A stretch of 64,000 nt of DNA from Kiritimatiellia bacterium (GTDB lineage Bacteria; Verrucomicrobiota; Kiritimatiellia; PWTM01): the NCBI GenBank assembly GCA_026417735.1, contig JAOACR010000009.1:265641-329640 (forward strand). Direction: 5' to 3'. This document shows positions 27,283 through 36,434 of this stretch, in pieces. The number at the start of each line of letters is the position of its first letter. The first letter of the stretch is position 1. Made by a program: the position numbers and the translations under genes. The notes under the pieces were generated by a model, which worked only from the letters and a program-made list of their open reading frames with translations, did not search any database and was not told where the DNA came from.

Positions 27283-28143
27283 TCAGCCCTGGGCCGCTGG
27301 GGGGGCGCCGGTGGCGGCCGGCGCGGGCATCGGCGCGGTCGCCTCGGGGAGCGTGACCTTGTCCAGCGGCAGCTCCCCGTTGCGGAGCCGGTCGAAGATC
27401 GCGGACAGGTGATGGCTGACGTTACCGGCGAGCCGGCCGACGCGCGCCATGTTGCCCTGGAAACGGGACTTCAGGTGGAAGTAGAAGAACATGAAAGGAA
27501 TGCCAACGATCAGCCCGAACGCCGTCGTGATCATGGCCTCGCCGATGTCGTTCGCGAGCTTCTCCGGGCTGCCCATCATCCCCAGGCCGATTTTCTGGAA
27601 CGCCTTGATCATTCCGCTGACGGTGCCCAAGAGCCCGAACATCGGCGCGACCGAGGCGATGATGGACAGGTAGCTGATCGGCCGCAACCCATTCGTGTTC
27701 TCCTCCACGGCGGCCTCCTCCATCGCCTTTTCGAGCACTGCGACCTCCGTGATGCCGTCGCTGAGGCGCAGCAGCCCAGCATTGATGATGTTCGTCAGCA
27801 CACCGGGCGAGGCGGCGCAGGTGGCACTGGCGGCACGGAAGTCGAGGTTGCTGATCTGGCTCTGGATCAGCGGTACCAGCGAGGACTGCACCATTTTCGG
27901 TTCACGCGTGAACAGAAACCCGAAGATCGTCAGCGCAGTGCCCGCAATGGAGAGCAGTGCGATCGGATACATTGCCCAGCCGCCGGTTTTCCAGAGGCCC
28001 CAAAGGGTGATCGCCTGCTCCTGCGGCGCGGCGCCAGCCGCGGGCGACGCGGGAGCCGGCTGCTGCGCAAGCACCGGTAAGGCGCCCAATACCAGTGCGA
28101 GGGCAACGCTAAGGACAACAGCTGCGCGGGTCGTTCGGTTCAT
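27283..28143 (-). CDS. ExbB/TolQ/MotA-family proton channel protein
   Basis: A 286-residue protein with a cleavable-looking N-terminal signal (residues 8-26), then three membrane helices typical of MotA/TolQ/ExbB: 'MYPIALLSIAGTALTIFGFLF', 'IASVAPMFGLLGTVSGMIKAF' and 'GEAMITTAFGLIVGIPFMFFYF'. The conserved Thr/Gly-rich second and third helices are intact. The added signal peptide plus a Pro/Ala linker is a variant seen in some ExbB proteins. AGGAAAGG lies before the ATG, which overlaps the upstream TPR-like gene by four bases (ATGA). Confidence 0.9.
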   Translation of the reverse strand: MNRTTRAAVVLSVALALVLGALPVLAQQPAPASPAAGAAPQEQAITLWGLWKTGGWAMYPIALLSIAGTALTIFGFLFTREPKMVQSSLVPLIQSQISNLDFRAASATCAASPGVLTNIINAGLLRLSDGITEVAVLEKAMEEAAVEENTNGLRPISYLSIIASVAPMFGLLGTVSGMIKAFQKIGLGMMGSPEKLANDIGEAMITTAFGLIVGIPFMFFYFHLKSRFQGNMARVGRLAGNVSHHLSAIFDRLRNGELPLDKVTLPEATAPMPAPAATGAPPAAQG

Positions 28144-29210
28144 GGTGTGGCCTTTCCTGGCGCAGAGGGCGCCGTCGGGGGATGGGTCTCCGTTTCCCTG
28201 AGGTACCTCAAAACCTTTTCGTTCATGTTCTCTTCGGTCCCGAAGAAAATGCCGGTGATGTTCGGATCTTCCGGCGCAGCGGTCATGCCGGCCTCCATCA
28301 TGGTCTTCAGCCGGATGCGAGCTTCGTCACCCCAATCGGTCCCGGGGAAGAGCCGCGCGACTTCGTAGTACACATCGCGGGCGCGATGGACCTCGTTCAG
28401 GTCCTCATAGCACTGCGCAGCAAGCATCAGCGCGTCGGGAAATGTCTCGATGTCCTTGGTCTCGTGCAAATAGGAGCGGATCGCGGCGTCCAGCGCCCCC
28501 CGGGGCTGTTCGCGAGCGTACAACAGCTGCGCTCGGGCTAACCAGTACACTCCCCAGGCGGCGTCGCCGACCTCCGGCTCGCGCTGCCGCACCAGGCCGG
28601 CCTCGGCCTCGTCAAGCCGGCCGATGTCGGCCAGGCACATCCAGGCGCGGATCGCGGCCGACTCACCGTACGGGTGCCAGCCGGCGGCGGCGCCGGCGGC
28701 GGCGAAGAGGCGGTGCGCTTCCGCCAGCCATTTCGCCGCGTCCACCTGACCGGTACCCCCGAGCCGGTTGGCCTGTTGCGCCGCACGCACATAGCACCAG
28801 GCGGCCCGGACGGTCGGCTCGAATGCGTTGTTCTGCTTGAGGTCCAAGAACGGCAGCGCGGGCGCGACCGCGGCGTGCAGGCGCCGAGCCGCGTTCAGCC
28901 ACCGCCGCGCCACCATGTCCGCATAGGCCGCCTGTTCGGGGATCTGAATGCGGAACTCCGCCTCGTCAAATTCATCGGCGGTGAACTGCGAGTACACGCC
29001 GGGCGGGGAGTTGGTGAGGCGGAAGAAGATGGTCGGCCCTTGCCGGCGCACCAGCACCACCTCGCGGACTGCTTTCTCTTCCTTCACCAGGCGCGTGAGC
29101 ACGCCTGGCTCGACCACGCGCGCGGAGGTACCGGTCGCCGGCGGCGCGGTTTGGGCGGCCGCCCCGCTCCCCAGCGCGGCAGCGACAAGGATCGCCGCGA
29201 TACGCGTCAC
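28140..29210 (-). CDS. Periplasmic TPR-like protein, partner of the ExbBD-VWA system
   Basis: A 356-residue protein starting with GTG that overlaps the stop of the upstream TPR gene (GTGA). A signal peptide (residues 1-19, ending AAAQ) is followed by a beta-rich segment ('VVLVRRQGPTIFFRLTNSPPGVYSQF') and then helical repeats of TPR/SEL1 character, including 'FPDALMLAAQCYEDLNEVHRARDVYYEVARLFPGTDWGDEARIRL'. It is likely to be a periplasmic scaffold. No catalytic motif is seen. Confidence 0.65.
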   Translation of the reverse strand: MTRIAAILVAAALGSGAAAQTAPPATGTSARVVEPGVLTRLVKEEKAVREVVLVRRQGPTIFFRLTNSPPGVYSQFTADEFDEAEFRIQIPEQAAYADMVARRWLNAARRLHAAVAPALPFLDLKQNNAFEPTVRAAWCYVRAAQQANRLGGTGQVDAAKWLAEAHRLFAAAGAAAGWHPYGESAAIRAWMCLADIGRLDEAEAGLVRQREPEVGDAAWGVYWLARAQLLYAREQPRGALDAAIRSYLHETKDIETFPDALMLAAQCYEDLNEVHRARDVYYEVARLFPGTDWGDEARIRLKTMMEAGMTAAPEDPNITGIFFGTEENMNEKVLRYLRETETHPPTAPSAPGKATP

Positions 29211-32008
29211 ATCCGGCCCCCCAGCTTCTGGCGGAGCTCGCGCGCGCTCGCGAACTCCGGCAGGTCGGCGAGATCGCTGCGGGCAAGAAACTCATCGAGC
29301 GTTTCGGTCGCGGCCCGCACACGGCCGAGCTTCGCCAGGCATTCCGCCCGTGCGAGGTACGCCTTGCCGACCCACGCTTTGTGCCCGCCGTACAACACGT
29401 AAATGCGTTCGAAATACGCGGAAGCCTCCTCGAACTTGCGGCGCGCCATCCACAGCTGGCCGCGCGCATAGAGCGCCTCGGGCCAGCGGTCCTTCCACTC
29501 CTTCGCGCCGAGCAGGTCGCGATAGGCCGCGTCGGCGAGGTCGTACTGCCCCGTCTGCGCATACAGGCGGCCGAGCCTCATCAGAGCGTCCGCGGCCGCG
29601 TCACTGGTCGCGTACACCTCACGGATGATGTTGTACTGCACAATCGCCAGTTCCAGATCGCCCTCCGCGACCGCCTGCTCGGCGATCAGCCGGCGCGCGG
29701 CCAGCGCGTAGTCGGTTTCCGTGAAGTCGCGGATCAGCGCCTCCGCCGCGGCGCGCGCGAGCTTCGGCTGGTTCGCGGCGGAGGCGGCGTCCACGATCCA
29801 CTCGAGCACGCCGGCGCTCGCGAACCGCAGGTTCTCTTCGCGAAGCATGAACTTCGCCATCGCGGCCTTCTCCGCATCGGACGTGCCGGCGTCGTACATC
29901 AGCACGCGTTCGAGCCGCAAGGCAAGCGTGTACTGACGTTCCTCAAGCGCACGCTTCAGCATGTCGCGCAACCGGGCCCAGGCTTCCTCGCCATGCGGGC
30001 GGCCCGCCGCGCGGCTGCGGTCCACGAACTTCTCCAGGATCAGGTCCACGCCCAGCTCTGAACGGTCACCGCCGTAGCGCGCCACCGCGTCCAGGAAGAG
30101 CGCCAACGTGCGTTCGGGCTCTCCCTTGTCCCAGTAGCACTCCCCCATCCAATAGATCGCCAGCGGCACGTTCGATTCGGGTCGCGCGCGCGCGATGTAC
30201 GCCTCGAAGTGGCGGATCGCATCGTCGTAGCGCTTGAGCTCCCGCAACATCTCGCCAGTGCGGAAGGCGGCGTGGTTGTAGAGCTCGATGTTGAGGTTCT
30301 CGGACTCCATCCCCTTCGTGTAGCGGCGGACCGCCTCCTCCAGCTCGCCAAGCGCACCGGAGATGTCGCCGAGCAGCACGTGCGCCTCGCCCAGCAGCTT
30401 GCTCCCCGGATATTGATCCAGAAAGCGCAGCAGCTTGCGCTCCGCCGGCTCATAGGCCGCCAGCGCATAGTCACAGGTCGCGGAACGGAACAGTGCGTCC
30501 TCCGCGTACATCGAGGCGGCAAAATCCTGCAGCAACCGATCGAAGTTCGGGCGCGCCTCCTCGTACTTGCGATCGAAAAGGAACGACATGCCCAGCCAGT
30601 AGAGCGCGTCGACCTCGCGCTCGCTGCCCGGAAATTCGCGCAGGATCCGCCCAAAGTGCGCCTGCGCATCGGCCAGCTTCTCCTCCATGAACGACGCGTA
30701 CCCCAGCAGGAACAGCACCTCCGCGATGTCTTCGTGTTTCGGGCTGACCTCGAGCGCCCGGCCGAGCACCTGCAGCACCTTCGGCCAGTTCTGTTCGTTT
30801 GCATACACCTGGCCGACCATCAGCGAGACCGCGTCGTAGTGGGGCCCGCCGGGATACCGATCCAGATACTCGTGGCCGCGCGAGAGACACCGGTCTGGCG
30901 GGCGCACCCGCACCGCACACAGAAACGAGAGGTAGAGGCATTCCTCCTGTTTGTCCGCGGGCGCGTCGAGATGCAGGTGGTAGAATAGGTCCGACGCCTC
31001 CCGTAGTCGCCGCGTCTCCATGTAACTACGCGCGATGCGGAACATCAGCTCCACATCGTAGTTCGGGATCTTCTCGATCGCCTCCAGCTCGGCCTCGATT
31101 TCCGCGACGGTCTCCTGCGCGCGCAACAGCTCGCGGGCAAGTCCGAGATGGCGCTGCAGCCGGCGCACGCGCAACCGCCAGAGCTCCAGCTGTTCCTGCG
31201 CATTGAGTCGCAGCAGGTCGTGCGGATAGACGAGCCGGTAGATCCAGAGCGCATCGCGGTACTTGTCGTCCGCGAAGAGCTCGTCGCCCGCCTCGAGCGC
31301 GGCCATGTTCAACGCGACGCTGCGCGACGCGAACGAGCCGCGCTGCAGCAGCAGCGGCACCATTGGATACACTTTGTCCACCGCACCGTCCTTGAGGTAG
31401 GAGGTCGCCAGCATCGCGGCCGCCCAGTTGCGGCGGTAGAGATCGGGCGCGGTGCGGTAGACTTCGAGCAGCAGCGGCTCCGCCGGCTCCCACTTCTCTT
31501 CGGCGAGGTGGCAGCGAGCCATCGAGACGAAAATGTCAATGCGCAAGTCGAGCGAGTATTCGTAGGTCTTCAACGCCTTCTGATAGGCTCCGAGCGCCTC
31601 CGCAAATCGGCCCTCGTACCGCCATGTGTCAGCGATGAAGATCGCGACCAGATGGGCGTTCGCGCCGTACGGGAACTTCTTCAGGTATGTGTCAAACACG
31701 TTGCGGCATTCGGCGAACTGCGCCAGGAACATATGACAGAGTCCGAGATGGTAAAAAACGTCCTCCATCTCCGCGCGCATGCTCGGCTGATCGGTGTCGC
31801 CAAACCATTCGACCAATTGGCGCAGAGGAGGAATCGCGTCCTCGTAGGCACCCCGCGCGAGCGCGGCCGCCGCCGCCGCGCGCGTTTCTTTGTACGTGTC
31901 CTGCGGGCTCGCCACCCGCCCCCCGAGCCAGAGGACCGCCACCGCACAGAGGAAGACGCAGCGCACCGACCGCCCCGCCGGGGATGGCAAAGACAAACCG
32001 CGGATCAT
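29207..32008 (-). CDS. Large periplasmic TPR-repeat protein, first gene of the ExbBD-VWA operon
   Basis: A 933-residue protein from ATG 32008, with a signal peptide (about residues 14-36) and then about twenty tetratricopeptide units across the whole length, for example 'AEVLFLLGYASFMEEKLADAQAHFGRILREFPGS' and 'VDALYWLGMSFLFDRKYEEARPNFDRLLQDF'. It resembles YbgF/BamD-type TPR arrays that organise Tol-Pal-like envelope machines. It should sit in the periplasm and present a long superhelical binding surface. The promoter lies 12-40 bases upstream, inside the end of the dnaE-like gene. The start could shift a few codons. Confidence 0.75.
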   Translation of the reverse strand: MIRGLSLPSPAGRSVRCVFLCAVAVLWLGGRVASPQDTYKETRAAAAAALARGAYEDAIPPLRQLVEWFGDTDQPSMRAEMEDVFYHLGLCHMFLAQFAECRNVFDTYLKKFPYGANAHLVAIFIADTWRYEGRFAEALGAYQKALKTYEYSLDLRIDIFVSMARCHLAEEKWEPAEPLLLEVYRTAPDLYRRNWAAAMLATSYLKDGAVDKVYPMVPLLLQRGSFASRSVALNMAALEAGDELFADDKYRDALWIYRLVYPHDLLRLNAQEQLELWRLRVRRLQRHLGLARELLRAQETVAEIEAELEAIEKIPNYDVELMFRIARSYMETRRLREASDLFYHLHLDAPADKQEECLYLSFLCAVRVRPPDRCLSRGHEYLDRYPGGPHYDAVSLMVGQVYANEQNWPKVLQVLGRALEVSPKHEDIAEVLFLLGYASFMEEKLADAQAHFGRILREFPGSEREVDALYWLGMSFLFDRKYEEARPNFDRLLQDFAASMYAEDALFRSATCDYALAAYEPAERKLLRFLDQYPGSKLLGEAHVLLGDISGALGELEEAVRRYTKGMESENLNIELYNHAAFRTGEMLRELKRYDDAIRHFEAYIARARPESNVPLAIYWMGECYWDKGEPERTLALFLDAVARYGGDRSELGVDLILEKFVDRSRAAGRPHGEEAWARLRDMLKRALEERQYTLALRLERVLMYDAGTSDAEKAAMAKFMLREENLRFASAGVLEWIVDAASAANQPKLARAAAEALIRDFTETDYALAARRLIAEQAVAEGDLELAIVQYNIIREVYATSDAAADALMRLGRLYAQTGQYDLADAAYRDLLGAKEWKDRWPEALYARGQLWMARRKFEEASAYFERIYVLYGGHKAWVGKAYLARAECLAKLGRVRAATETLDEFLARSDLADLPEFASARELRQKLGGRM

Positions 32009-32019
32009 TCTGGAGCCCA

Positions 32020-32048
32020 ACTCTAGGTACGCCGTTCCGACAAATCAA
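32020..32048 (-). promoter_or_regulatory. Promoter of the TPR-ExbBD-VWA operon, inside dnaE-like gene end
   Basis: On the minus strand TTGATT (32048-32043) and TAGAGT (32025-32020) are 17 bases apart. The -10 ends 11 bases before ATG 32008, so any leader is at most about five bases and too short for a normal ribosome site. It overlaps the last codons of the dnaE-like gene. Confidence 0.55.
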
Positions 32049-35000
32049 CCACCAGCCGCACACTCCGAGGTCCCGCACATCGCTCCAACGCCCGCACCAG
32101 CGAGGCGCCGACACCCACCGGCGGCGGCCGAGCGGATCGAAGCGGCGCACCGAGCAGCCGCAGCGGCGTCGGTCCTGGATGCGCCCGCGCAGCAGCCACA
32201 AGTTCGTGGAGCAGCGACCCCTCACCACCGGCCGGCACGCTCACGCACACTTCGACCACCCGTCGCACCGCCGCCTCCAGCGGCCACCATCTGCCGACGG
32301 CAGTCAGCCCACCTCGTTCGCGCCGCACGGGCACCACGACGGGCTCGGCCGGCCATGCGGTGGTGGGCAGCCATCCGGGCGGAATGCCGATTTGCTCGAC
32401 CCCGTCGAACATGTCCAGTGTCACGCCCGGGGCGAGCTCGTCCGCAACGCGGAGCGGCACCCCTGTGGCGAGGCTCATCCCGTCCGACTCTCCCTGAGCC
32501 GGCACCGCGGTTCGCAGCCACCACTCCCACGGCCGCAGCGGATGTGGCGAGATGACGACCCCCAGCAACTCCCGCTCCGCGGCCCACCGGTCGGCCAAAA
32601 CGTCGGTGAGCGAAGGGGGCGATCCAGTGGCGCAGGTCTCGTTGAACAACAATGTCTGGCCGTGTCGAACATCACGCGCGGCACTCGCGGCCGTCCAGAT
32701 CGCGTCGAGTTCCGCGAGCAGCTGCGCGCGAGGAGCGCCGAATGAGTCAAACGCTCCCGCGCGCACCAGGTGGGCCAGCGTGTTGCGACCGAGGGCGACC
32801 CCGGCCAGCCGCTGCGCGAAATCCGCAAGGTCGCGGAACGGCCCCCGTTGTTCACGTTCGGCGACCCACATCGCGGCCGCTTCCGGCCGGACACCACGGA
32901 TGGAAATCCACCCCAGCCGAATCGCGCCCGCGGTCGCGCGTGGAGTGACCATACTTTCATTCGCATCCGGTCCGAGCAGCGGAACGCCGCGCGCGATCAC
33001 CTCCCGCAGCAGCGGCCGTGCCCGCTCCGGGTCGCCCGCCTCCGCCGCCAGCGCGGCGGCATAGAACACCAGCGGTTCGCGCGCCTTCAGCCAGGCGGCC
33101 CGCCAAGCATGGGTCGCGAGAACCGCACCCCGAGCCAGCGACACGCGCCGGTGGAAACAGTCCAACACCGCCGCCCACACCGCCTCGATTTCCCTGTCCG
33201 GCAGACCCCGCCCACGTGCGCCATTCCGAACCTGTTTCCACACCCGCCGCCGGAGTTCCTCGTCGCGAGCAGACTCTGCCCGGCGCGCGAGGTCCGCAAA
33301 CTCGGGTGGCAGGCGCGCCAGCCGCTGGAGCACTTGCACCGCCTGCTCCTCGTACAGCAGCATTCCGCCCGTTGGAGCCAGGAGCGGTTGCACCGAGGCG
33401 TCGACCCGTTCTGGCGGACGGCGTCCCTCGAGTGCCGCCTCCAGCTCCGCGGCCAGCGCCGAAGACTCCGCCGCCAGGATCGCCAGCCAGGGAGCCAGGT
33501 CCTCCACGCGGCGGGCACCCCATTTTCGGCACCGTTCTGCGACCGCCGGCAGCTCCAGCCCTGGGATCCCCGCGACGTCGCCCCGCCGGATCAGCTGCGC
33601 GACGTCCACCTCGCGACCATCCACCCGCTCGAATGCGCCCGCTTGCTCCGGCGAGCTGGCGCGAAGCGCAGCGCCGGCCTCGCCCAGCAGCGCCGCGGTA
33701 CGGCTCGCCGGCACATCAGTGCGCACCAATCCAAAACGCGGCAGATCGCGAACCTCAAACTGGGTCACCGCATCGCCATCGGCAGTGCGGTAGAGGGGCA
33801 CGATCGAGCCAACCGGGGAGTCCGCCAGCACCAGCGCGGTCGGATGGGCCGCCCATGTGCGGGGGAGGCCTTCGAACATCGCCGCAAAATGAACCAGCTC
33901 GGACCATCGGCCGGCCCTCGCCAAAAGCCGGTCCCGAACGTCGGCCCGATCTAACCGCGGCTCGGATCGAACAGTGTCGCCCAGTATCGCGATCAGTTCT
34001 TCCACTTGGTCCGCTGGCACGCCCAGCACCCGGGCGACCTCGCGGACCGCGGAGCGCGCGCCGAACACAACACGGGTGCCCGCATGCACAACACAGTCCT
34101 CACCGTAGCGCTCGCGGACCAACGCCATCAGGCTGGCCCGATGATGCGGCGCGACATCCAGCGAAAGCTCCGGCAGTGCGGGATGATCCGGGTTCAAAAA
34201 CCGCTCTGGCGGCAGGTCCCAGCGCAGCGCAAGGACATCCGTCAGCTCCAGCGACCAGGCCAGCAGACTGGAAGCAGCCGCCGCACGGGAGGGCGTCACC
34301 GCCAGCCCTCGCTCCCGCGCCGCACGCACCAGGTCCGCGTGCACCAGCAGGTAGTTGGCGACGCGCGCGCGGATCGCGGCCTCAATCTCCCGATCGAGCC
34401 GCCGCTCGGCCGCAGCTGTGCGGGTGGGTGATGCAACCACAGCGGCCCACCGCCGCCGAAACCCGGCCCAGGCTAGCCGTCGCAGCTCGTCGGCGGAACC
34501 GCCGACGGCCGCGCCATCCGGCGGACGGTAGCGGGGAAACCGCGACGTGTCGGGTGGCCAGGGATTGAGCTGGCATCGCTGCGCAATCTCGATCGTCGTC
34601 TCCAGCGCCTCCGGCGCGTCCGCAAACGCCGCCGCCATTTCCTCGGGCCCTTTGAGGTAAAATTCCGAAGAGTACGACGTTCCGTCCTCCGCCCGCGCGA
34701 TCCCGCGGCGGACACAGCGCAGGCATCGATGAGCCTCGGCCTGGTCGCGGCGCAGGTAGTGAACGTTGTTGGTGGCGACGCACCGCACCGACGCCTGCCG
34801 CGCAACCTCCCGCAGCGACGCAATCAGTTCGGCCTGGCCAGCCAACCGCTGGTTCTGCAGCTCGACGAACACCTGGTCCCGCCCAAACGCCTCGCTCAGC
34901 CGCCGGAGCGTCTCCACCGCCTCCTTCGCGCGACCGGCGCGGCACAGCCGGGAAATTTCGCCGTTGTTGCCGCCGGTCAGCAGGATCAGCCCCTGCGTGT

Positions 35001-35373
35001 GCCGAAACAGTGTGGACTCGCTCAACACCGGCCGGCCGTGCGCCGCGGATTGCAGCTGCGACTCGCTCACCAGCCTCACCAGCGAGAGCCACCCTTCGGC
35101 GGTCTCCGCGATCACCACCAGATCCGGCCCCGTCGCGCCGGCGGCCAGCGCGGCGCGTGGCGCCATTTCGAACTCGACGCCGAAGATCGGCCGCAGCCCC
35201 TGACGGCGTGCCTCGCGCATGAACAGCGGCGCCGCATGCAGCGACGCCGCGTCGGTCATCGCGACCGCGGGCATGCCGGCGTCAGCGACCGCGACCATCA
35301 GCTCCGGAATCCGTACGAGGCTGTCCAGCAGACTGTATTCGGTGTGGACGTGGAGATGGACGAACCCCGACAT
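32023..35373 (-). CDS. DnaE-like DNA polymerase III alpha homologue with degenerate active site
   Basis: An uninterrupted 1,116-residue frame with the full DnaE layout: PHP-like N-terminus ('HLHVHTEYSLLDS', 'FGVEFEM'), palm, fingers ('TGGMLLYEEQAVQVL'), and a C-terminal part. The polymerase motifs are broken. The PDFDIDF motif that holds the two catalytic aspartates reads PELSLDV (Glu402, Ser404), GPGRGSAAGS reads TPSRAAAASS, KFDFLGL around the third Asp reads RTDVPAS (Asp553 kept), HAGGVVI reads HPTALVL, and FNKSHS reads SLARGA. The PHP site has also lost TDH (reads TDA). It is therefore very unlikely to polymerise DNA. Intact length argues for a retained non-catalytic role. It starts 18 bases after a CPBP protease gene. 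A normal DnaE must exist elsewhere. Confidence 0.85.
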   Translation of the reverse strand: MSGFVHLHVHTEYSLLDSLVRIPELMVAVADAGMPAVAMTDAASLHAAPLFMREARRQGLRPIFGVEFEMAPRAALAAGATGPDLVVIAETAEGWLSLVRLVSESQLQSAAHGRPVLSESTLFRHTQGLILLTGGNNGEISRLCRAGRAKEAVETLRRLSEAFGRDQVFVELQNQRLAGQAELIASLREVARQASVRCVATNNVHYLRRDQAEAHRCLRCVRRGIARAEDGTSYSSEFYLKGPEEMAAAFADAPEALETTIEIAQRCQLNPWPPDTSRFPRYRPPDGAAVGGSADELRRLAWAGFRRRWAAVVASPTRTAAAERRLDREIEAAIRARVANYLLVHADLVRAARERGLAVTPSRAAAASSLLAWSLELTDVLALRWDLPPERFLNPDHPALPELSLDVAPHHRASLMALVRERYGEDCVVHAGTRVVFGARSAVREVARVLGVPADQVEELIAILGDTVRSEPRLDRADVRDRLLARAGRWSELVHFAAMFEGLPRTWAAHPTALVLADSPVGSIVPLYRTADGDAVTQFEVRDLPRFGLVRTDVPASRTAALLGEAGAALRASSPEQAGAFERVDGREVDVAQLIRRGDVAGIPGLELPAVAERCRKWGARRVEDLAPWLAILAAESSALAAELEAALEGRRPPERVDASVQPLLAPTGGMLLYEEQAVQVLQRLARLPPEFADLARRAESARDEELRRRVWKQVRNGARGRGLPDREIEAVWAAVLDCFHRRVSLARGAVLATHAWRAAWLKAREPLVFYAAALAAEAGDPERARPLLREVIARGVPLLGPDANESMVTPRATAGAIRLGWISIRGVRPEAAAMWVAEREQRGPFRDLADFAQRLAGVALGRNTLAHLVRAGAFDSFGAPRAQLLAELDAIWTAASAARDVRHGQTLLFNETCATGSPPSLTDVLADRWAAERELLGVVISPHPLRPWEWWLRTAVPAQGESDGMSLATGVPLRVADELAPGVTLDMFDGVEQIGIPPGWLPTTAWPAEPVVVPVRRERGGLTAVGRWWPLEAAVRRVVEVCVSVPAGGEGSLLHELVAAARAHPGPTPLRLLGAPLRSARPPPVGVGASLVRALERCAGPRSVRLVVDLSERRT

Positions 35374-35391: not shown

Positions 35392-36264
35392 CTACCAGAA
35401 CCACCACGCGTCCGCCCGTAGCACATGAAGGCCGAGGAGAAAGTTCGTGAGTCCGTGCGCAAACACCGCCGGCCAGATCCGGCCGCTGCGCAGCACCAGC
35501 ACGCCGTACACCAGGCCGGTCAACACCCCCGCGAACCACTCGGTGTGCTCCAGGCCAAACAGGACGGCAACCACCAGGAACATCGGCACGTCGCGATGGG
35601 CCAATGAGACCGAACGGAAGTCCCGCGCGCACAGCCACCGGTAGAGGAAACCCCGCCAGAAGAACTCCTCCGCCGTCGCGATGACCACCGAGGTGCCCAG
35701 CATGTGGATCCCGAATGCGATCCAGCCGGTCCGCGCCGGCAGATAGGGGTAGCTGCTCATCGGGGCACGCAACCGGCCAAATCCCCCCGGCAGCGGGCCG
35801 ACCAGATAGCGTTCGTACCACTCGGCGATCCGTGGCGCCAGCGCGCGGAACGCGTCGCTCTCAAAACCCACCCACAACACGAACACGCCGAGCCCCGCGG
35901 CGACCGCCCACGGAAGGTCGCGCCAGCCAGGCCGCTCGTACCACCGCCACGGGCGCGTCCCCAGCAGCATCGCGCCCGCCAGCAGCGTGCGCAACGTGTA
36001 GTTGGCCGCGGACGGCTCGCTGGCGCCATACATCACGGTCAACCACGTCGCAAACGGGCCGATGTGCGCCCACGTCGCGGCGTCCCGCCAGGGCCGCTGC
36101 CACGCGAGCGCGCCGACCGCCGCCGCCAGCCCGGCCAGCCGAGCCCACCAGGCATCGTCGCCCAGCAGATGCGCGACGAACAGAAACAGCACAAACGGCA
36201 GCAGGTGTGCCCACCCCGGCACCGGCGCGGTCACGGTCTCCCCGCGGGTTGCAACCTCACCCAT
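35392..36264 (-). CDS. CPBP-family intramembrane protease (exosortase-associated CAAX-protease type)
   Basis: A 290-residue protein with eight or so membrane helices. The CPBP/Abi motifs are in order: 'ATAEEFFWRGFLYRWL' (EExxxR), 'VLFGLEHTEWFAGVLTGLVYG' (FxxxH) and 'PAVFAHGLTNFLLG' (HxxxN). The overall sequence resembles the CAAX prenyl protease-related group found in genomes with exosortase/PEP-CTERM sorting. It may process membrane or sorted proteins. The start ATG 36264 was chosen from a leaderless promoter; 45 in-frame codons upstream are low-complexity. The stop is 18 bases before the dnaE-like gene, so the two are co-transcribed. Confidence 0.82.
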   Translation of the reverse strand: MGEVATRGETVTAPVPGWAHLLPFVLFLFVAHLLGDDAWWARLAGLAAAVGALAWQRPWRDAATWAHIGPFATWLTVMYGASEPSAANYTLRTLLAGAMLLGTRPWRWYERPGWRDLPWAVAAGLGVFVLWVGFESDAFRALAPRIAEWYERYLVGPLPGGFGRLRAPMSSYPYLPARTGWIAFGIHMLGTSVVIATAEEFFWRGFLYRWLCARDFRSVSLAHRDVPMFLVVAVLFGLEHTEWFAGVLTGLVYGVLVLRSGRIWPAVFAHGLTNFLLGLHVLRADAWWFW

Positions 36265-36270
36265 GCGCCC

Positions 36271-36298
36271 ACCATAAACGTTCGCGGTGATTTGCCAA
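36271..36298 (-). promoter_or_regulatory. Promoter of CPBP protease/dnaE-like operon (leaderless type)
   Basis: On the minus strand TTGGCA (36298-36293) and TATGGT (36276-36271) are 16 bases apart. The -10 ends six bases before ATG 36264, predicting that transcription starts at the start codon. Confidence 0.6.
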
Positions 36299-36434
36299 GC
36301 TGCACCACCCGCTGCGGCCGACGGCCCGCCGCAAGGGGCACGACCGCGCCGCGCCCCCACTGCCCCGCTGGTCGTGCCGCCGGTTGCGAGCGCGCCCAAC
36401 CCGCTGCCGGTGTGCGTTCGCGTGCCGCCGCGGA

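Follow-up and report, generated by a model that had tools for sequence, protein, structure and literature searches.

The B, X and Y families of DNA polymerases include naturally inactivated members. Here, we describe a gene of the C family, dnaEx, whose product is a full-length DnaE homologue of 1116 aa that very probably represents the native replicase, displaced and then retained in a polymerase-dead form. The gene occupies positions 32023-35373 of a 64,000-nucleotide stretch (hereafter, the window; positions 265,641 to 329,640 of contig JAOACR010000009.1) from a Kiritimatiellia bacterium (assembly GCA_026417735.1). This genome is called G000 below, with G000-G003 denoting its genus and G000-G008 its order; all features given by window coordinates lie on the reverse strand, except where an antisense frame is mentioned. 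In sequence, domain order, fold, position of the clamp motif and ancestry, dnaEx resembles DnaE1 (Pol III α), from which it differs in lacking the catalytic aspartate pair, K553, the FNKSHS motif and the PHP site, in its degenerate OB-fold and C-terminal domain (OB/CTD), and in sharing the cell with another DnaE. Noncanonical PolX enzymes likewise combine a dead polymerase site with a PHP domain as the conserved part and a retained DNA-binding body, but they keep 8-9 PHP ligands and are exonucleases (PMC9226535), whereas dnaEx keeps 5 of 9 and belongs to another polymerase family. ImuB-type mutasome polymerases are also dead polymerases kept with a clamp motif; these are of a different family, and no ImuB or DnaE2-type context was found around dnaEx. 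The inactive C-terminal module of eukaryotic Pol ε is a dead fold that has been kept, probably as an assembly platform (PMC2669801), but it is of the B family and fused to an active polymerase, whereas dnaEx encodes a separate protein. Archaeal PolB2 carries catalytic-motif substitutions in cells that also have an intact replicase (PMC2527604; PMC8764526); PolB2 is, however, active, and the damage in dnaEx, which lacks both paired aspartates and the nucleotide pocket, is wider. Finally, the D403E α-subunit of E. coli is a dead α that is able to enter replication complexes and is dominant-negative in assays (PMC10850973), but it carries a single engineered change, whereas dnaEx has also lost much of its C-terminal region. 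A 2013 survey of Pol III α reported the catalytic aspartates to be absolutely conserved but had excluded sequences whose active site was not intact (PMC3919608), and the sections of a 2026 survey that treat inactive Y-family groups and inactive exonuclease domains mention no inactive C-family polymerase (PMC12926913). A full-text search of the open-licence literature found no report of a naturally inactive or pseudoenzyme DnaE.

The dnaEx frame starts with ATG and runs for 1116 codons with no internal stop. Its assignment to C-family DnaE by homology rests on the ordered succession of PHP, Pol3 core, fingers and helix-hairpin-helix (HhH) regions (Pfam and NCBIfam, residues 3-955; Foldseek): the PHP, DNA_pol3_alpha, HHH_6 and DNA_pol3_finger domains all score above the Pfam cut-off, and the TIGR00594 (polc superfamily) model matches residues 4-955 with 533 bits. 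An AlphaFold2 model built from 11 sequences has a full DnaE fold (predicted local distance difference test score, pLDDT, 82.6; predicted template modelling score, pTM, 0.73), and a Foldseek search over the body returned DnaE and PolC chains only (TM 0.85 normalised to the M. tuberculosis DnaE1 core 5lew). The catalytic motifs were compared by alignment with E. coli DnaE and more than 50 other DnaE proteins. Where these have PDFDVDF, dnaEx has PELSLDV (residues 401-407; 34153-34173), in which E402 occupies the D401 position and S404 the D403 position, and D406, equivalent to D405, is retained. GPGRGSGAGS is represented by TPSRAAAASS (360-369; 34267-34296), with the Arg retained, HAGGVVI by HPTALVL (510-516; 33826-33846), and KFDFLGL by RTDVPAS (551-557; 33703-33723), in which the Lys (K553) is lost and D553, the equivalent of the third catalytic aspartate D555, is retained. 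Additionally, VSLARG (744-749; 33127-33144) stands in place of FNKSHS, with loss of the nucleotide-binding residues, and the TDH motif of the PHP domain reads TDA. The first-pass annotation of this gene had read the frame, its strand and its 1,116 stop-free codons in the same way, together with PELSLDV and the altered GPGRGS, KFDFLGL, HAGGVVI, FNKSHS and TDH motifs, but its list passed over the retained D553, D406 and clamp-binding peptide. Thus, the catalytic triad D401/D403/D555 reads E/S/D, which is not that of an active C-family polymerase, and because two catalytic aspartates and the nucleotide pocket have been lost, the ability of dnaEx to polymerise is almost certainly gone.

Other parts of the protein have fared differently. 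The PHP domain (residues 1-275; 34549-35373) is the most conserved part, as judged by alignment and counts of invariant positions. Its ligand string is HHDAEDGNH, versus HHDHEH(C/H)DH, with five metal ligands of the nine (H, H, D, E, H) in place, which falls short of a PHP exonuclease. The four replacements (A/S, D, G, N) are themselves conserved: Ser or Ala for H48, Asp for H107 (D107), GGNNGE around C158, and TNNVHY for TNDVHY, in M. tuberculosis DnaE1 numbering. Since the genus shows no variation in the five ligands and the four replacements are conserved, the PHP site appears to be more than a product of plain decay. The HhH DNA-binding domain (796-885; 32719-32988; Pfam HHH_6, 68 bits) is also retained, and behind it, at the canonical place, stands the putative clamp-binding motif QTLLF (906-910; 32644-32658), the sole Qxx[LM]F in the protein (0.08 expected), in a loop predicted to be flexible (low pLDDT over 902-924). 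G001 has QALLF here, and G002 and G006 have QGLLF, so that three of the four genus members retain the motif; its final Phe is lost in G005 and G008. The clamp gene dnaN gives two matches in G000, both within one 371-aa frame, and there is apparently one clamp gene per genome. The OB/CTD (956-1111; 32041-32508), by contrast with the PHP domain, is the least conserved part; strands and helices are predicted in it, and it has no Pfam OB match.

The pattern of substitution bears directly on whether such a protein is under selection. Rates were estimated by NG86 for G000 versus G001 with bootstrap intervals, and omega values from IQ-TREE codon models were discarded, the branches being saturated. 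At 68% identity, dnaEx has a ratio of nonsynonymous to synonymous substitution rates (dN/dS) of 0.24 (0.20-0.28), versus 0.11 (0.09-0.13) for the intact DnaE of the same two genomes at 86% identity, values that are approximate because dS is near saturation but that are still far from neutrality. The corresponding dN values are 0.24 and 0.10, i.e., dnaEx changes about 2.5 times faster at amino-acid sites. By domain, the dN/dS of dnaEx is 0.17 in PHP, 0.34 in the fingers and 0.63 in the OB/CTD (961-1111). Invariant positions were counted for dnaEx in five sequences (the four genus members and G006) and for the intact paralogue in five genomes spanning a comparable range. In dnaEx they make up 40% and 34% of the two PHP halves (37% overall), 15% and 14% of palm/thumb, 11% of the fingers, 22% of HhH and 6% of the OB/CTD; the paralogue has 53% and 54%, 63% and 38%, 58%, 48% and 15%, respectively. 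On these counts, constraint is gone from the polymerase part and held in the PHP domain. In addition, dnaEx frames of at least 1,000 codons persist without stops in four species at 43-68% identity. Judged from its substitution rates and from these four orthologues, dnaEx is kept by purifying selection and is no pseudogene; a fresh pseudogene is ruled out by dN/dS together with synteny, and an assembly error by the separate genome G001, which shows the same residues at 68% protein identity. The first-pass annotation had also argued against a fresh pseudogene, and this conclusion stands, but it had relied on the length of the frame, which is insufficient in itself since long frames come cheaply in G+C-rich DNA, as illustrated by a 516-aa antisense open reading frame (ORF) at 33018-34568 inside dnaEx.

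Besides dnaEx, G000 (3.09 Mb, 24 contigs, 97% complete) carries one other DnaE, at G000:C11, in which the catalytic residues are all present, as are nine of nine PHP ligands, an OB domain and the clamp motif QLSLF. Because this intact DnaE is present, dnaEx can be regarded as an accessory paralogue. A C11-type DnaE is also carried by every other dnaEx-bearing genome but G003, which is 68% complete. Searches for dnaEx orthologues took in all nine genomes of the order, four of them in the genus of the window. The catalytic aspartate pair is replaced in all four genus members (PELSLDV in G000 and G001, PELGLDV in G002, PELALEV in G003), and the D555 position holds Asp in three of them and Glu in G002; the Arg of GPGRGS and the D555 and D405 equivalents are retained in the two closest species. 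Outside the genus, a graded series is seen. The G006 orthologue retains D401, D403 and D555, with D405E and an altered FNKSHS, and that of G004 retains the aspartates and has lost FNKSHS. The orthologues of G005, G007 and G008, in sister genera, have intact polymerase residues and only 0-2 of the nine PHP ligands (in G008 the gene is truncated at the start). In two families outside the order, the polymerase site is intact in G038b and G026a, with four and eight of nine PHP ligands, respectively. Hence, the intact second dnaE, the orthologues with the same kind of substitutions throughout the genus, the purifying dN/dS and the same letters in a second assembly, which the first-pass annotation had listed as matters to check or as possible refutations, turned out in its favor.

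The ancestry of the two paralogues was addressed by a maximum-likelihood tree of 44 sequences (IQ-TREE, mixture model). In this tree, dnaEx and the intermediates nest inside the native DnaE1 of the class (support 100/98 and 100/100), the C11-type DnaE proteins of the order, G026 and G038 fall outside the DnaE1 of the phylum, and DnaE2-type sequences form a supported group of their own, apart from dnaEx. Forcing both paralogues into one clade costs 89.6 log-likelihood units, and a recent duplication of one DnaE is rejected by the approximately unbiased (AU) test (p-AU 1.3e-6). Likewise, when the G006 orthologue was used as query against 346 genomes of the class, the best matches were the ordinary single DnaE1 proteins of other families, at 39-42% identity. 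The simplest history, strongly supported by the tree, would be that a foreign DnaE entered the ancestor of the order and two related families and assumed replication, with demotion of the native enzyme, and this foreign origin stops short of proof because the trees contain long branches. From the placement in the tree and the intact intermediates, it seems that the native replicase was displaced, lost PHP proofreading and then, in the genus of the window, lost polymerisation. The first-pass annotation did not have this displacement, nor the intact versions in sister genera, nor the finding that selection is strongest on the PHP domain and not on the polymerase body.

Several further observations concern the DnaE proteins of these genomes. 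The C11-type DnaE (G000:C11, and its counterparts in G001, G002, G004-G008, G026 and G038), presumably the replicase now in use, has a one-residue deletion in GPGRGS (IPAAP-RGSGVAT) and a two-residue deletion after the catalytic motif (YG--HVAQIIT), both of which occur in the order and two further families. The proteins at G005:C48, G008:C102 and G007:C138 are derived from DnaE1 and reached a DnaE2-like state, that of a polymerase without PHP proofreading, independently. A very divergent DnaE-like ORF at G015:C89:1-2943 has intact catalytic aspartates and an insertion just before the motif (RMSRNKLPDIDID), and sits on a long branch near DnaE2 in the tree. The G006 query had no DnaE match in two genomes of the class, G043 (93% complete) and G236 (89%), where assembly gaps or a very divergent DnaE are the probable cause.

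Within the window, dnaEx is preceded, after an 18-nt gap, by a gene for an Rce1-like (CPBP) membrane protease (35392-36399; Pfam PF02517) and followed by a gene for a TPR-repeat protein (29207-32020) that begins 2 nt past it; both adjoin dnaEx in all four genus members, and the TPR proteins are 76-90% identical. The same run holds a second TPR-like protein (28140-29210) and a MotA/TolQ/ExbB proton-channel protein (27283-28143; Pfam PF01618), both present in G000, G001 and G003, in which it extends to a VWA gene; the G002 contig stops within the TPR gene. The conserved gene order suggests co-expression of dnaEx with its neighbours. This context is restricted to the genus, the other genera lacking it, and reading the function of dnaEx from neighbours was rejected, as these are envelope and TPR genes in a context that is not common outside the genus. 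All four genus members encode a DnaQ-like 3'-5' exonuclease (about 270 aa) whose C-terminal extension is conserved (G000:C20, G001:C35, G002:C101:11144-11611, G003:C5), in G002 about 6 kb away from dnaEx; matches in genomes outside the genus were weaker or larger. In E. coli, ε binds the PHP domain of α, and for this reason the DnaQ-like protein is proposed as a partner of dnaEx; it is a candidate only, as the co-occurrence amounts to one evolutionary event and is no proof. G000 has two Y-family proteins, DinB and a UmuC-like protein, both with intact catalytic motifs. The genus and G006 have an intact DinB (Pol IV; G000:C10, G001:C39, G002:C45, G003:C13, G006:C69), these being the genomes where dnaEx is most altered, and DinB was not found in G005, G007 and G008, a pattern that again represents one evolutionary event; a second Y-family match comes from G004. 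The UmuC-like protein of G000 neighbours a LexA/UmuD-like gene, and several genomes of the order place such a gene (about 210 aa) immediately upstream of this polymerase.

We propose that a DnaE from outside the phylum made the native, vertically inherited DnaE1 redundant in the ancestor of the order and two related families. The displaced copy would first have lost PHP proofreading while still a polymerase, the state seen in the sister genera, and both catalytic aspartates and the nucleotide pocket would then have been lost in the genus of the window. The dead protein could still reach DNA and the sliding clamp via its HhH domain and QTLLF, and the PHP domain would be its working part, serving another DNA-maintenance protein at clamp-loaded DNA as a docking or sensing module and probably not acting as a nuclease. 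In known α-subunits, τ binds the C-terminus, and the degenerate C-terminus of dnaEx may keep the dead α out of the fork. The docking role is advanced tentatively, whereas the account as a whole, that of a displaced, dead, clamp-tethered replicase working through its PHP domain, is held with some confidence. The ancestry, the loss of catalytic residues, the purifying selection, the move of constraint to the PHP domain and the clamp motif are read from the sequences, whereas inactivity, actual binding to clamp and DNA, the docking role and any partner are inferred. Several points weigh against the account. Archaeal PolB2 was judged inactive from sequence and later shown to be active (PMC8764526), and weak residual polymerase activity of dnaEx is conceivable, as its D555 and D405 equivalents are retained. 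The Gln of the clamp motif is lost in G003, which has EAGLF. The protease, TPR and TolQ neighbours point to no replication link, and a search of plasmids for the donor of the C11-type DnaE gave a best match of 42% identity and no donor. To these are added the long branches and near-saturated dS mentioned above.

One alternative, which we consider rather unlikely, keeps the polymerase dead but makes the remodelled PHP site catalytic, as a nuclease or phosphoesterase with reduced or altered metals brought to DNA by HhH and the clamp motif, comparable to polymerase-dead PolX. The PHP domain is indeed the most conserved domain, its HVH, D, E and H ligands do not vary within the genus, and D107, GGNNGE and TNNVHY are conserved replacements. 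Nevertheless, four of the nine ligands are replaced, so that, under the usual site assignment, each of the three PHP metal positions loses at least one ligand. Polymerase-dead PolX proteins keep 8-9 ligands (PMC9226535), and the part of the 2026 survey dealing with DnaE classes PHP sites with any deviation as inactive (PMC12926913). A further unlikely possibility is a clamp-tethered enzyme built around the dead polymerase, in which the remodelled site (HVH / D / E / D / GGNNGE / TNNVHY) would carry out a new DNA- or nucleotide-processing chemistry. The faster amino-acid change of dnaEx (dN 0.24 versus 0.10) and its nearly relaxed OB/CTD could instead indicate a relic of the displaced replicase that is slowly decaying, under selection against nothing but toxic misfolding or retained through its position among co-transcribed genes, but this is improbable given the long stop-free frames in four diverged species, a dN/dS well below 1, reaching 0.17 in PHP, and the conserved new residues of the PHP site.

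It is very improbable that dnaEx is still a polymerase, one that uses an unusual metal set (E402, D406, D553) and is specialised for lesion bypass. The retention of the D555 and D405 equivalents and of the GPGRGS Arg in the two closest species would fit such an enzyme, as would the PolB2 precedent (PMC8764526) and the proofreading-free, catalytically intact versions in the sister genera. Against this, D401 and D403 are both gone, K553 and the FNKSHS pocket are replaced, the fingers are the least conserved region of the core, and the single D403E change is enough to make E. coli α dominant-negative in assays (PMC10850973). The first-pass annotation had proposed that the protein was kept as a non-catalytic factor, an idea upheld by purifying selection, the dead site and the retained clamp motif. 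Its suggestion of a mutasome scaffold analogous to ImuB fared worse and now seems extremely improbable: the clamp motif is there and Y-family genes are present, one of them beside a LexA/UmuD-like gene, but no ImuB-type protein was found in nine genomes, both Y-family proteins have intact catalytic motifs, and dnaEx lies outside the DnaE2 group and is not adjacent to lexA, imuA or imuB.

A native replicase that was displaced but retained in polymerase-dead form would add a C-family case to the naturally inactivated polymerases of the B, X and Y families. The order also offers a natural experiment in bacterial replicase replacement, with living intermediates in the sister genera in which the order of loss, PHP proofreading and then polymerisation, can be followed, the survivors being the clamp peptide and the PHP fold. 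Furthermore, dnaEx opens to experiment the question of how a dead α, dominant-negative in assays with E. coli, is tolerated by a cell.

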